In this document: piece after piece, positions 1 to 4,877 of the stretch | Layout of the letters: each line of letters starts with the position of its first letter | How positions within the stretch are numbered: the stretch's first letter is position 1 | From: JALXCG01 sp026991065 [NCBI: Gemmatimonadota bacterium] | Lineage (GTDB): Bacteria > GCA-2686955 | Length of the DNA stretch: 5,929 nt | Reading direction: 5' to 3' | Assembly: GCA_026991065.1 (NCBI GenBank) | Contig: JALXCG010000440.1 | Coordinates: forward strand, 1-5,929 | The notes under the pieces: generated by a model | What the model was told of the DNA's origin: nothing | What the model saw: the letters and a program-made list of their open reading frames with translations, nothing else | Databases searched by the model: none | Made by a program: the position numbers and the translations under genes

Positions 1-100
1 GCTAAGTCCTTGAAAGGCAACCAGCCTTCCTGCGGACTCAGCGCCTTGATCTCGAAGCAGGCCCGAACACGGGGCTCGAAAGCCAATGCGCGACACGCTC
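1..100 (-). repeat. Left arm of the ~97-bp imperfect inverted repeat (may continue beyond the window)
   Basis: The reverse complement of this segment matches the plus strand from about 1194 to 1293 at about 89% identity (11 mismatches in 97). The match holds to within a few bases of position 1, where a 2-base gap may allow it to continue, so the outer boundary is not visible. The inner boundary lies near 97-100, at a 14-bp palindrome absent from the right arm. Both arms read through without stop codons in one frame on the repeat strand (RALAFE...ACFEIKA...GWLPFKD). No transposase or known insertion-sequence end is recognised. Confidence 0.85.
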
Positions 101-116
101 CTAGGAGCGCTGCGCA
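87..116 (-). terminator. Palindrome/stem-loop after the 322-residue gene
   Basis: A perfect 14-bp palindrome cgctcctaggagcg (96-109) lies about 25 nt after the stop at 135. Pairing extends outward through a small internal loop to TGCGC/GCGCA-type ends at 87-116. It could be a U-less terminator hairpin or a protein-binding site, since it has no T tract. It coincides with the inner edge of the left repeat arm. Confidence 0.3.
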
Positions 117-134
117 TCACACCGTAGCAATCGC

Positions 135-1103
135 CTATTCACAGCTGGATCGTGTCGGCATGAGCGCCGGGTAGATCATCTCCAACGTTGTGAAGAGCGT
201 GTTCAGGCTGGCTGATGTAACGGGGTGCCCGCCGCGGAGTAGAGCAGCGGCGCAGTTTTCCAGGCTCCGTAGAACCGAGAGCGGTGTCGCCAAGGTTGCA
301 AGCAGCAGGTCGCCCTGATAGCCGATCCAGGGAGGGTGGGAGATCGACATCCACTGTTTGAGCAGGATTGTGGCCATCTCCTCATGGAGGTCAGGCGGTA
401 TGTATGGGCCGAGTTGGGCCATGACCCGGAACCCAAGCCGAGTCGGCTTGGAATGCACGAGTCTGGAGATGACCTCAACTGCCCCTTCTCGATTCACCAG
501 CGGGTCCGGCCCAAGCACCGAGGCGATGCGATGGCAGACTGAGATGTTCACGTTTGCATCAGACAAAAGGGCAAGAAGTGAACTTTGTGCGTCCGTGTCG
601 ATCTGATCTCCGAGGAACTCGATGGCAGCCATCGCTTCGTCACCGATCCAGACCGCCTCAGTTGGGTCCAACGGATCGATGCCATCGAGCAGTGCCGACA
701 ATTGTTCTTCAAAACAGTGACGGGTGGTTCCCGGAGATGCCAGCCTGGCGGTAGCAAGAAGCGGCGTTTGTTCCCACGCCGGGTCTGGGTCCAGAGCAAC
801 TTTGATGTCAGCGAAGTCGTGGAGCAGCAACAACCTCGCCAGTGAAACCGGCGCCAGATCGGTCGCCAGTACCGCCCACCTGACAACTGGTTCCGCCGGC
901 CGGACGACTCTGCTCCAGAGCCACTGCTGTGCCCAGTCCATGCGAACATCAGGCGCGTGAATGCGCAGCCGCTGGCCGGGAACTGCGGCCGCGAGCGCGT
1001 CAATCCAGCGATCCGACGGAACGGTGTCCGTCCAGACCAGATCGATCGGCTCGCCGCACGTAGGCTCGGTGAGTACGTTCCCGGACGCTTGCACAGAAGT
1101 CAT
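135..1103 (-). CDS. Hypothetical protein of 322 residues, helical C-terminal half, between inverted repeats
   Basis: I do not recognise this protein. It has no signal peptide or convincing membrane segment, so it is probably cytoplasmic. Residues about 18-110 look mixed alpha/beta (PIDLVWTDTVPSDRW, VVRWAVLATDL, ARLLLLHDFADIKVAL). Residues about 150-310 are a series of amphipathic helices (EAMAAIEFLGDQI, SSLLALLSDANVN, GAVEVISRLVH, LGFRVMAQLGPY, EMATILLKQW, LENCAAALLRGG), compatible with an ARM/HEAT-like solenoid, though no repeat consensus is clear. Codon third positions are GC-rich like its neighbours, which supports real coding. ATG 1103 is chosen as the first start; the only purine-rich stretch, AAGGG, sits two bases before it, too close for a good ribosome binding site, so the true start is uncertain. 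The gene is bracketed by the inverted arms at 1-100 and 1197-1293, with a palindrome after the stop, so it may be the passenger of a repeat-bounded unit. Function unknown. Confidence 0.72.
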   Translation of the reverse strand: MTSVQASGNVLTEPTCGEPIDLVWTDTVPSDRWIDALAAAVPGQRLRIHAPDVRMDWAQQWLWSRVVRPAEPVVRWAVLATDLAPVSLARLLLLHDFADIKVALDPDPAWEQTPLLATARLASPGTTRHCFEEQLSALLDGIDPLDPTEAVWIGDEAMAAIEFLGDQIDTDAQSSLLALLSDANVNISVCHRIASVLGPDPLVNREGAVEVISRLVHSKPTRLGFRVMAQLGPYIPPDLHEEMATILLKQWMSISHPPWIGYQGDLLLATLATPLSVLRSLENCAAALLRGGHPVTSASLNTLFTTLEMIYPALMPTRSSCE

Positions 1104-1196
1104 AACCCTTGAGTCGACCGGGGATCAGTAGGAATTCAGTTCTCTGTGCGAAACAGTTGTGAAGCGCCGCCCGGGCTGTAAGTCATTGGTCAGGAG

Positions 1197-1293
1197 TCTG
1201 TCGCGCATTGGCTTTCGAGTCCCGTGTTTGGGCCTGTTTCGAGATCAAGGCGCCGCGTCCGCGGAACGGCTGGTTGCCTTTCAAAGACTTTTG
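1197..1293 (+). repeat. Right arm of a ~97-bp imperfect inverted repeat flanking the 322-residue gene
   Basis: Read on the plus strand, this segment aligns with the reverse complement of the window's first ~100 bases. From 1194 onward there are 86 identities in 97 positions without gaps; the longest exact block (tcgcgcattggctttcgag, 1201-1219) is near the inner end. The arm lies in the gap between the exported-protein stop and the start of the unrecognised gene. A 6-bp stem (GTTGCC 1273-1278, GGCAAC 1293-1298) sits at its outer end. The rest of the 1104-1382 gap shows nothing I can support. Confidence 0.85.
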
Positions 1294-1382
1294 GCAACGC
1301 AGAGATCGGCGCAGTGACAAGTGCGGGGCAACGGGAAGACAGTGTGCGATTGGCTCCCTGGGAAAGGGCGAAGCGAGCATTC

Positions 1383-2132
1383 CTAGTGCTGGTACTGGCT
1401 ACGCTCTGGACGCTGGAATCTGCGCGTGCGCTTGCTGGGGCGGCCACGGGTGGCCCGCCGCTTTCGGTCCGTCGCCGGGTGTGACACACGGCGCGGTTGC
1501 TGGAGCGCGTCTTGCCTCCATTTTGCCTCTACGCGATCGGGGTGCTTGTCGGCGAAACGCTGCAACGCTTTCGCATAGTGCGGGTATTGGGCGGAGCGAG
1601 CCAATACAAAGTGCGTACGAGCCGCCGAGTTCCACGCCTCATTGCGCCACTCGGGATGAGATTTCAGAATCTGCGCCTCTTCACGTGCCAAAGCCGGATC
1701 CTTGTGAGTTCTCTCTTCAAACCCCTCCCCTGCGTCGGTCATGCCGAGAATGGCACGAACTCTTCCAGGGTTTTTCTCGAGGCCACGAAGCGCGGAGCGC
1801 GCCGCCGCCGGATGACGCTCGTAGTAGTCCCCCGCGCGAGCAACGAGCCGCGGATTGCTGCGAAGCAGAGCGAGACGCTTTTCATGACTCTGAAAATACT
1901 CATAAGCCGCCCGCGCGCGCGCAGAATCGAACTCTTCAGGTGGAGCAACTCCGGTTTCCAAGGAACGGAGCAACTCCGGATGAGCCGCTATTTCGAGCGC
2001 GTACTCCCGTGCCGAGATTGGCCAAGTTGCGAGTGCACAGAGAAAGCCCTCCGCATCGGTGGCAGTAGCTGAAGGCGCAACGCTCCATATAAGAAACGCG
2101 GCGATCAGAAGATCTCGAAACTTTGAATGCAT
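1383..2132 (-). CDS. Exported helical-repeat protein with HP/NP motifs and an arginine-rich tail, function unknown
   Basis: The 249-residue product starts with a likely Sec signal peptide: basic MHSKFR, hydrophobic LLIAAFLIWSVA, then small residues APSATATDA with cleavage likely near residue 24-27. No lipobox cysteine is at the junction, so a periplasmic or secreted location is inferred. The mature part is helix-rich with recurring His-Pro or Asn-Pro turns at helix starts (HPEL 51, NPRL 93, HPAA 107, NPGR 121, HPEW 159, HPDR 197). This resembles uncharacterised exported proteins built of short 'xHPxL' helices; I know no function for them. Residues 211-249 form a tail with 12 Arg and 2 Lys against 2 acidic residues, which may be a nucleic-acid or polyanion-binding extension, or a frame-shifted end. 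ATG 2132 is chosen because the signal peptide begins there; the Shine-Dalgarno signal is weak. A promoter candidate precedes it, so it is probably transcribed on its own. Confidence 0.75.
   Translation of the reverse strand: MHSKFRDLLIAAFLIWSVAPSATATDAEGFLCALATWPISAREYALEIAAHPELLRSLETGVAPPEEFDSARARAAYEYFQSHEKRLALLRSNPRLVARAGDYYERHPAAARSALRGLEKNPGRVRAILGMTDAGEGFEERTHKDPALAREEAQILKSHPEWRNEAWNSAARTHFVLARSAQYPHYAKALQRFADKHPDRVEAKWRQDALQQPRRVSHPATDRKRRATRGRPSKRTRRFQRPERSQYQH
1942..1979. repeat. Two copies of GGAGCAACTCCGG 25 bp apart inside the exported-protein gene
   Basis: The 13-base sequence ggagcaactccgg occurs at 1942-1954 and 1967-1979; each contains the small inverted repeat GGAG-CAA-CTCC. 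The copies are 25 bp apart, not a multiple of three, so they encode different residues (PELLR and TGVAP) and do not reflect a protein repeat. A small local duplication is one explanation; coincidence in GC-rich coding DNA is another. Confidence 0.5.
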
Positions 2133-2385: not shown

Positions 2386-3093
2386 TCAGGAGGCAGGCGC
2401 CTCGCCTGTCCGAGCTTCAGCCGCTTGAGAAAGCAGGTGGACCAATTCGTGATCGGGCTGTCGGCGCATCAGCCGCCGATGCAATTCGCGCAGGCCCTTG
2501 GGATGGTCCACGTCCGCAAGAGGATCCAGGATAACTCGCTCGTAACCCAACTCTCTGATGTTGCTTTCTACCGTGGCCCGTACAGTGCGGCTGCGCCATG
2601 GGACCTTGCGGAGCAGTTTCATGGGTGGCACGCAGAGACCGAGGAGGTACAGGCCACCGTCCCGTGCGGGCCCTAGAACGACCGGAACGCCATCCCCCAG
2701 TAGGGCAAACGCGCGATGGAGGTGACGCGGACGCAGTTCAGCAACATCGCCCGGTATGGCAACCACGGGGGCGTAGCCGAGTGCCTGAATGCCAGCAATT
2801 GCACAGATCAGGCGCGCCCCGAAACCATCGCCGAAAACCGGTACGACTCGAATCCTGCGACTCCGTCCGATGACCGGTTCAACAACCTGCCGAAGACCGC
2901 GCTCCTGGTCCCCGGGAAGAATCAGGTCGACATCTGCATCAATGCCGCGAATCGCGACCAAGGTCGATTGCACGATCGTCCGATGGATATCTTCACTCTG
3001 CGCTCCCCACGACTTGACCTGAGCTTCTACCTGCGGCGCTCTGCAAAAAAGAAGCACGGCACGTGGCAGAAAAGGCAAGGTCAATTGCTGCAT
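2386..3093 (-). CDS. DUF2064 / TIGR04282-like glycosyltransferase-A fold protein, divergent
   Basis: The 235-residue product matches the DUF2064 family (GT-A fold, 'rSAM/selenodomain-associated transferase 1'). Members are about 200-240 residues and presumed cytoplasmic nucleotidyl- or glycosyltransferases whose substrate is mostly unknown. Visible family features are the first strand AVLLFCRAP (12-20), FGDGFGARL (87-95, usually QGDLGERL), VVAIPGDV (110-117, usually the metal-binding GSDCP/GTDCP), the hallmark GPARDGGLYLLG (141-152), VPW (164-166) and LADVDHPKGLREL (192-204). Two signatures are altered. The usual 'VPGRVKTRL' after FARAP is QVEAQVKSWG, losing the basic KTRL, and the CP of the DCP motif is replaced while its Asp remains. 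Enzyme activity may therefore be changed or lost. Usual partners (a family 2 glycosyltransferase, a radical SAM protein) are absent. The gene lies 111 nt after the sigma stop with no clear terminator between, so co-transcription is possible. Confidence 0.82.
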   Translation of the reverse strand: MQQLTLPFLPRAVLLFCRAPQVEAQVKSWGAQSEDIHRTIVQSTLVAIRGIDADVDLILPGDQERGLRQVVEPVIGRSRRIRVVPVFGDGFGARLICAIAGIQALGYAPVVAIPGDVAELRPRHLHRAFALLGDGVPVVLGPARDGGLYLLGLCVPPMKLLRKVPWRSRTVRATVESNIRELGYERVILDPLADVDHPKGLRELHRRLMRRQPDHELVHLLSQAAEARTGEAPAS

Positions 3094-3096
3094 GGG

Positions 3097-3102
3097 CTCC
3101 TC
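3097..3102 (-). promoter_or_regulatory. Ribosome binding site deciding the DUF2064 start
   Basis: The minus strand reads GAGGAG-CCC-ATG, with the ATG at 3093-3091. The GAGG core is five bases from the ATG. The only earlier in-frame start is TTG at 3153, which has no such site and would add 20 residues (MCERAPTIGSGQ...) unlike the family's N-terminus. Confidence 0.55.
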
Positions 3103-3204
3103 GCTTCCACCTTCGCGTTGGCCGCTCCCGATCGTGGGCGCCCGCTCACACAACAGGCGCGCGACGACGCCCCGGCGCGAACCTGAGGGAGAGTGCGGAG
3201 ACGA

Positions 3205-4581
3205 TCAGACTGCTTGCAGTTTTCGTATTTGGCGCAAGCTCTGAGATCGCGATGGATGGCGCAGCTTGCGCAGTGCCTTGGCTTCGATTTGACGGACACG
3301 CTCTCGAGTGAGCCCAAAAATACCACCTACTTCATCAAGTGTCTTGGGCTTCTGTCCGCCGAGACCAAAGCGCATCCGGACGACCATCTCTTCGCGGTCA
3401 TCAAGAGTTCGCAGTAGCCGCCCCATCTCCTCCCGCACCAGGGAACGCGAGACTCGCCGTGCGGGGGAATCTGCGCGCGTGTCTTCTATGAAATCGCCCA
3501 ACCGAGTGTCTTCCGACGAGCCCACCGGGCGGTCCAGAGAGACCGGCTCGAAGGACCCACGCATCACCTTGCGAACTCTCTCGATAGCCAGCCCGGATTG
3601 CTCGGCGATTTCGTGGACATCTGGCCTGCGTCCCAACTCTACTTCGAGAAGGCGGGACGCCTTGACAACCTTGTTGATCGATTCAGAGACGTGAACAGGA
3701 ACCCGAATCACCCTGCTCTGGTCGGCGATTGCACGCGTGATCGCCTGTCGAATCCACCATGTAGCGTAAGTAGAAAACTTATAGCCCTTGCGGTAGTCGA
3801 ATTTTTCTACGGCCTTCAAAAGACCGCGATTGCCCTCCTGAATCAGGTCGGAAAGCTCCAGCCCACGGTTACTGTATTTGTTGGCGATGGTGATCACGAG
3901 CCGAACATTGGCTTCCACCATTACTGCCTTTTCGCGCTCCATCGCACGCGCGTGTCGATCGTGCTCCTGAAGATCCCCCCGGAGTTGCTCAAGAGACCGC
4001 CCGATCTCTTCGGCAAGGGCAGGAAGTCCCCCAGAGAGAGCGTTCTCCGAAAGATTCAGGCGCTTGACTTCGCCGTTGAGTGGGCGGTCTCCAGCTACCG
4101 ATTCCATGACCACGAGTGCATCGCGGGTGCGCGCGACGATCTCGTCCACCCACTTCTTTTCGAGTGAGAGAAGCACTGCGATTCTCCCCGCTCGATTGGC
4201 GGCTTCGGCATCGACACCGATCGCCCTGTATTCCTCTTCCAGCCGTTCGAGTCGCTTGAGGAACTTCTCGGTCTGACGCTGCAGGATATCGTAGTAGTTG
4301 GGGCGCCAGGTAGGGATATCAAGGCGCGTGACACGGTCGACCTTCCGTTCAGCGGAACGAACCGTAGCACCAAGCTCCAATACCTGACGAATTGCGATTC
4401 GATTGCGAAAAATCGCCATGCGGCGGGCTCGATCTGCCCTTACTATTCTCTTGGCAATTCGAACTTCACCATCTTTGTCGAGTAGTTGGATTCTTCCCAT
4501 TTCGCGGAAGTAGATGCGAATCGGGTCATCGCAAAGGCCTGTTGGCGTGCTTGTGGCGTTCGAGTTGGTCGCTCTCTTCAA
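3205..4581 (-). CDS. rpoD: RNA polymerase sigma factor, sigma-70 family, RpoD type (group 1 or 2)
   Basis: Sigma subunit that guides RNA polymerase core to promoters and melts the -10 region. In the 458-residue form starting at TTG 4581, region 1.2 is at about 18-46 ([12 protein letters not shown]). A non-conserved, coiled-coil-like insert spans about 50-215. Region 2 is at about 224-290 ([39 protein letters not shown]), region 3 at about 291-368 ([14 protein letters not shown]), and region 4 at about 389-450 with helix-turn-helix [20 protein letters not shown]. The Gln/Thr pair that reads the -10 element and the RERxRQIE helix that reads the -35 element are conserved, so normal TTGACA/TATAAT specificity is expected. 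The frame extends upstream to GTG 4875 (556 residues), but the extra 98 residues look non-coding. The TTG form lacks region 1.1, so this could be the primary RpoD of a lineage with a short N-terminus or a group 2 alternative factor; the symbol names the family. The previous gene ends 362 bp upstream. Confidence 0.93.
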
Positions 4582-4590
4582 CCGCTTCTC

Positions 4591-4595
4591 CCTCC
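4591..4595 (-). promoter_or_regulatory. Ribosome binding site deciding the sigma factor start
   Basis: The minus strand reads GGAGG followed by nine bases (GAGAAGCGG) and TTG at 4581-4579. This is a near-ideal Shine-Dalgarno sequence and spacing. No comparable site precedes the upstream GTG at 4875, and no ATG lies in frame before region 1.2. Confidence 0.6.
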
Positions 4596-4771
4596 GCGTG
4601 CTTCCGCGGCGATTCAGATTCTGGAAATGAACCGCCGGCGAAGCGATGAATCTGGCCGCATCGGCACGCGATATTTGGACCTGGAGGGGGAGCGACCACA
4701 GCAAAGATGAAGCCGCTCCCTTTTCAGTGGGCACTGACCAAAGAGCATTTTCCGTGCCGGGAAGTCTGGCT

Positions 4772-4814
4772 GCGAAAGGGGCCAGTTTTCGCGAAAAGAT
4801 GGCAAGACTTTCGC
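4772..4814. promoter_or_regulatory. Nested inverted repeats around TTTTCGCGAAAA (possible operator)
   Basis: A perfect 12-bp palindrome, ttttcgcgaaaa, occupies 4786-4797. It is enclosed by a second inverted pair, gcgaaag at 4772-4778 and ctttcgc at 4808-4814, so the half-site GCGAAA occurs four times in 43 bp with near-common symmetry (centres 4791.5 and 4793). Such an arrangement fits binding of a dimeric or tetrameric transcription factor upstream of the sigma gene, about 190-230 nt before the chosen start. The binding protein is not known to me; the role is inference from symmetry alone. Confidence 0.35.
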
Positions 4815-4877
4815 TTTGATCACGCGCAGGTGGTCTCCGGCTGTTGGATATTTCCCACTTGCTGGGGCAGAACACGC

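Follow-up and report, generated by a model that had tools for sequence, protein, structure and literature searches.

We consider it likely that the two inverted arms at the left end of the window are independent insertions, in opposite orientations, of an IS5-like MITE that duplicates a CTAG/YTAR target and is built round a strand-specific hairpin, the fold of which would be needed for multiplication. The repeat is present in many copies, usually 161 bp long, with inverted ends and 4-bp flanks; its two copies in the window differ in age, and in another genus the gene between the arms keeps its genomic setting without them.

The window is the entire contig C440 (5929 bp), one of the 902 contigs of a draft genome (G000; 4.14 Mb, 83.8% complete) that is broken at repeats. 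The arms lie at 4–102 and 1192–1290 (99 nt, 89% complementary, separated by 1089 nt). Because the runner-up inverted pair within the window is just 21 nt long at 76%, chance is excluded as their origin, and the inverted repeat described in an earlier note on this DNA is real. The repeat extends past the limits of the arms: the right arm lies inside a full-length but decayed copy of 163 bp (copy 2; 1194–1356, plus strand), and the left arm is the final 100 bp of a truncated copy (copy 1; 1–100, minus strand) of an element that usually measures 161 bp. The left copy is incomplete because the contig starts inside the element, as do contigs C523, C539 and C579. No Rfam family at gathering scores and no tRNA was found in the window.

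The earlier note had offered a dispersed, non-autonomous mobile repeat as one reading of the arms, and this part of it stands. Searched against its own genome, the left arm had at least 50 matches (40 of 97 candidates scored), of which 40 were arm-length at 89–100% identity, itself included. The element starts GAGC(C/G)TGTCGCGCATTG and finishes with the inverse of this sequence, and a scan of G000 with the end pattern returned 64 forward and 64 reverse matches (128), against 0 for a reversed control pattern. Among copies taken within 157–166 bp, exactly 161 bp was the length of 32/42 in G000 and of 8/10 in G001, a genome of another genus of the same family; some shorter or longer end-to-end distances were also found in G000. 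Being short, dispersed in many copies, free of a transposase ORF and bounded by terminal inverted repeats, the element is a MITE by its structure. G001 carries a subfamily (24+34 end matches) with the end GAGCCTGTTGCGCATAG, in which both ends are altered together. Deletion derivatives include a 73-bp copy with an internal deletion (L053, 1135–1207) and a 34-bp palindrome (L116, 10546–10579) that is little more than both element ends joined. Five contigs of G001 (C41, C57, C60, C107 and C113) begin with an element end, which falls in the first 86 bases. Contigs that open in element ends in this way indicate that the elements fragment these assemblies, and copy numbers may be underestimated.

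The sequences adjoining the ends were compared over 52 elements, 42 from G000 (1 of 43 rows having been dropped as spurious) and 10 from G001. On both sides the outer 4-mers were mostly CTAG or one step away from it, with C at flank position –4 in 46/51 and G at position –1 in 49/51. Identical left and right 4-mers occurred at 16/52 elements, compared to 10.5 when shuffled (p 0.019), and identical pairs other than CTAG numbered 7 where 2.1 were expected (p 0.0016). Outside the 4 bp, similarity between element copies ends. We read the 4-bp flanks as a target duplication at YTAR-like sites. In the window itself, copy 1 is followed by CTAG (101–104), a target-type tetranucleotide; copy 2 is flanked by TCAG (1190–1193), which is decayed or atypical, and CCTG (1357–1360), and these two do not form a clean pair.

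Comparison of the copies separates the two arms in time. Over the whole of its length, copy 1 matches a copy on contig C177 at 100% identity, and 28/41 other copies are closer to copy 1 than the right arm is. Copy 1 and copy 2 share 91.4% identity over 93 columns of a local alignment, and the best match of copy 2 to any other copy is 88%. Judged by these identities, the left copy is young, and the right copy is older and decayed. The divergence of about 11% between the arms, from which the age of a paired unit had been argued, instead measures a young copy against an old one.

The 322-aa gene between the arms (135–1103, minus strand) is complete and belongs to no recognised family, as had been reported; searches of Pfam, NCBIfam and PADLOC gave no match at the limits applied. 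Among 60 genomes searched, this conserved hypothetical gene is present only in G000, where a protein search finds a single copy, and in G001, where the orthologue is 38–39% identical. Gene order is common to the window and G001, running sorting-domain protein (54% identity), rpoD (70%), DUF2064 (46%) and 322-aa gene (38%). The anchors in the window are an rpoD-like sigma factor gene (3205–4875, minus strand) and a DUF2064 gene (2386–3153, minus strand) that is TIGR04282-like at a score below that model's cut-off. On the syntenic contig of G001, element ends (either subfamily's end, at most 4 mismatches) occur only at 77–124, about 6 kb from the gene. Since G001 has the 322-aa gene in the same position, following rpoD and DUF2064, without either arm, the gene is an ordinary chromosomal resident, not a passenger. 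A 249-aa ORF (1383–2132, minus strand), which lies between DUF2064 and the 322-aa gene, has no family match and nothing corresponding to it on the syntenic G001 contig, and is a further difference from G001 at this site.

These observations bear on two other ways in which the arms could be related. If both MITE copies and the intervening gene moved together as a composite unit, opposite arms would surround one gene, as they do here, and the available text of two sources mentions MITEs on the flanks of integrons and composite movement of a MITE-like sequence (PMC10969869, PMC3189936). Such a unit is nevertheless very unlikely, given that another site has an identical version of the left copy, that this copy is nearer to most other copies than to its supposed partner, and that the gene occurs in the same order in G001 without the arms and is present once in G000. 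An invertible segment, or phase switch, recombining between long inverted arms of 89% identity is the least probable of the readings we weighed: the orientation of the 322-aa gene relative to rpoD and DUF2064 is identical in G001; none of the window ORFs with a family match is a recombinase (as far as the contig reaches, which is up to the left arm); and the repeat is present in dozens of copies. Both were rejected on the ages of the copies and the arm-free synteny in G001, and with them went those parts of the earlier reading that spoke of a unit, a passenger gene or a switch. The arms mark two separate insertions that flank an ordinary gene, not one unit. Inverted arms round a gene can be two chance insertions, and draft contigs tend to break in such repeats.

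The neighbourhoods of 55 single-module copies in G000 and G001 were examined with a crude ORF caller. For the 40 with both neighbours called, orientation relative to the neighbours was even (12/10/9/9), which gives no support for a cis-acting role in host transcripts, and that role was rejected as a candidate. With the same caller, 13/55 copies fell inside a called ORF, and in 6/55 the upstream same-strand gene ended 3–5 bp short of the element, which is what a TAG stop contained in the target would give. At the other boundary of the element, in G000 and G001, ten downstream ORFs on the opposite strand come to their end, and stop codons may often be part of the target sites.

The whole element is predicted to fold into one rod, at –108.8 kcal/mol (z –11.3) on one strand and –83.0 kcal/mol (z –8.6) on the other, and six predicted pairs differ on both sides between the G000 and G001 consensus sequences yet remain paired. 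Inside it lies a module of about 65 nt, composed of a 7-bp helix, the loop AAGGCG, a helix of 7–8 bp, the loop GCA and a capped tip helix, followed on the return side by the loop AA, the returning helix, the loop CAACGCN and the closing helix. In G001 the loops read AAGGAG and CGACGC, and in both G000 and G001 2/7 pairs of the outer helix are G-A/A-G. A covariance model of the module (R1), whose training sequences were chosen by an exact 20-mer so that identity of the tip among them is partly selection, found the module in both window copies: truncated in copy 1 (1–54, minus strand; model positions 1–52 of 65, 57.6 bits) and with all 65 model positions in copy 2 (1240–1308, plus strand; 57.8 bits). 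R1 also picks up second modules that had been left out of its training; at ten loci two modules lie on opposite strands with their starts 104–107 bp apart. At 14 element-bearing loci, searched down to E 2–5, the module had no Rfam match, and it was not found in five IS loci searched (L268, L269, L270, L275 and L282).

The helices of the module covary. Over 20 sequences, pair changes on both sides filled 68 cells, relative to 21.9 (s.d. 3.3) when shuffled, and the covariation score was 0.496; shuffling gave 0.171 and sliding no more than 0.186. For 60 distinct matches, in an alignment fitted to the model's structure and drawn from lineages that share descent, the score was 0.605, compared with 0.183, and covariation extended to the tip helix once model-found lineages had been added. 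Among 15 representatives the commonest letter accounted for 88% in unpaired columns versus 64% in helix columns. At 23 lineage-pair cells most sequences had G-U, and at no cell did most have A-C (single cells: 109 versus 11), some of the wobbles being shared by descent; second modules, each taken on its own strand, gave 7 G-U majorities and no A-C. We take this asymmetry to point to one folded strand in each module, which may be RNA or single-stranded DNA. The module could instead be a functionless relic of common descent, or of recent horizontal spread of one successful MITE, and its patchy distribution would fit this, as would the near identity between the tips of G000, G001 and Marinobacter, which is partly due to the gammaproteobacterial set having been found by exact 20-mer. 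We regard this as unlikely, because the helices differ widely between lineages yet stay paired while the loops are nearly fixed, because G-U far outnumbers A-C, and because the tip also covaries after addition of the model-found lineages.

Among the matches listed, the exact interior 20-mer was also present in Marinobacter, Shewanella, Zhongshania, Spongiibacter, Spongiibacteraceae, Haliea and another gammaproteobacterium. Where both ends could be read, the surrounding elements were about 263–267 bp long and had other ends; two Zhongshania-type lengths of 233 bp arose from the end pattern matching an inner site. R1 matched 63/369 genomes of the class of Marinobacter xestospongiae, which we take to be Gammaproteobacteria (E-values rough, from a short calibration, and no reversed-sequence control); 20 of the 63 had a single match and 9 had at least 14 scored candidates. 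A pattern survey of the same 369 genomes, with 9/369 positive and 2/369 for the reversed control, is an undercount compared to R1. Of 386 genomes drawn as relatives, R1 matched eight (G000, G001, G658, G007, G052, G515, G523 and G669). G658 is gammaproteobacterial, because one of its loci matches a G205 locus in the class sample letter for letter, and the matches in G007 and G669 were weak (30.9–31.5 bits), with no YTAR-flanked ends there. Neither a Marinobacter element nor a window-type element had a match in plasmids by distant search, and viral contigs had no match to an exact 22-mer.

The ends of module-bearing elements were then scored at 39 loci (38 distinct, 27 genomes) outside the training set, 7/46 having been dropped with the module near a contig end. 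At 16/39 loci (14/27 genomes), 12-bp ends agreeing at no fewer than 10 positions were found with YTAR tetramers outside both, compared to 0/155 in control windows of the same loci; a duplicate pair (L316/L368) and two loci from pattern-found genomes are included in the 39 and are not among the 16. The tetramers at the 16 loci were identical direct repeats at 8 and one step apart at 3, and at the remaining 5 they were CTAA/TTAG, complementary rather than repeated and perhaps part of longer ends. Sizes fell at 152–160 bp (5 loci), 212–228 bp (4) and 254–266 bp (7). Such YTAR-flanked ends were missing at 23/39 loci. In G658 (L316, L321) a module-bearing element of about 258 bp has the ends CCCAAACCACCTCA, TATA flanks and at least 14 scored copies; it is apparently the same module at a different target.

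Insertion sequences of the IS5 group share a YTAR-type target with the present element and, unlike it, encode a transposase. A search for the IS5-type transposase family PF05598 in nine genomes (seven gammaproteobacterial hosts, G000 and G001) gave matches in five; there were none in G000, an 84%-complete draft, in G001, in Spongiibacter marinus (G062) or in a Haliea draft (G066). A PF05598 transposon or fragment had one end equal to that of the local module-bearing element at 18/18 positions in Spongiibacteraceae SAT61 and in Shewanella SHEW3503E, at 17/18 in Zhongshania marina and at 15/18 in Marinobacter BWSM_102, so that 3/7 gammaproteobacterial hosts have a one-end match of 17–18/18, and a YTAR-type tetramer adjoins each of the four matching ends. 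The agreement is confined to one end, the other end of the SAT61 transposon being different and the Shewanella copy being a fragment, and most Zhongshania PF05598 loci and both M. xestospongiae loci had no matching end. From the one-end matches in these three hosts, an IS5-group transposase acting in trans is the most likely agent to move the element.

No mobilising transposase with these ends was found in the G000 draft, where the only match to PF01609 (DDE_Tnp_1) lies at L089 without the element's ends. Near this 420-aa DDE_Tnp_1 ORF (G000:C699) there is a CRISPR-like array at 2440–2915 with seven repeats (GTGACAAAGCTTCCCTGACGAAGAAGGGATTGAAAC, up to 3 mismatches). An autonomous relative in G000 or G001 was also sought at 12 of 22 ends with foreign interiors and was rejected there, as no credible second end was seen; by inspection, none of the ORFs at these 12 ends looked like a transposase. 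A palindrome of the REPIN/RAYT type, moved as single-stranded DNA by a Y1 transposase, would likewise be palindromic, of high copy number and specific in its folded strand. We hold this to be highly improbable: Y1 transposases are not expected to leave 4-bp direct flanks, which are observed here, the element has long ends and measures about 160 or 260 bp, and PF01797 had 0 matches in the 84%-complete draft of G000 and 1 in G001. An IS5-like MITE remains the reading that we prefer.

Among MITEs with long hairpins, bcr1 resembles the present element in being dispersed and often intergenic and in having a transcript with predicted stem-loops. ERIC, Correia and QMITE2 resemble it in the same respects, and MITEs whose transcripts form stem-loops were already known; the available text describes for them no internal module common to elements with unrelated ends (PMC10969869). 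The closest counterpart in target and build is MITEPsy1 of Pseudomonas syringae, for which the available text reports 100 nt, no ORF, inverted ends and a 4-nt duplication of CTAG or YTAA, transposition having been shown and derivation from the IS5-family ISPsy2 being thought likely (PMC3189936). Like MITEPsy1, the present element is short, lacks an ORF and has inverted ends and a CTAG-like 4-nt duplication; it differs in its length of 161 bp and in its ends (PMC3189936). As far as the open PMC literature was searched, the module is undescribed. What appears to be new, then, is a covarying module common to elements with unrelated ends.

Taken together, the comparisons suggest the following mechanism. 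A short non-autonomous transposon would insert at a CTAG-like (YTAR) target and duplicate 4 bp, as IS5-group elements do, moved in trans by an IS5-group transposase, and its fold, as RNA or single-stranded DNA, would be needed for the element's own multiplication. Since the ends differ by lineage while the module persists, we infer that elements without the fold multiply poorly; the module would thus be retained for its part in multiplication, and the ends would vary according to the resident transposase. These elements are probably MITEs of the IS5 type that need a strand-specific fold in order to spread. More tentatively, and with somewhat less than even confidence, this uncatalogued structural motif may lie at the core of a family of YTAR-targeting MITEs that spans the bacteria, in which the ends follow the resident IS5-type transposase, the module is indispensable, and elements with two modules give either strand one correct fold.

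On the established view, MITEs usually need only their ends. Nearly fixed loops and covarying helices combined with unrelated ends would imply an additional requirement for spreading, which may be a host factor, an RNA or a replication-linked fold. As the module is common among the sampled gammaproteobacterial genomes and has no Rfam match, many repeats could now be recognised by it, and the requirement could be tested.
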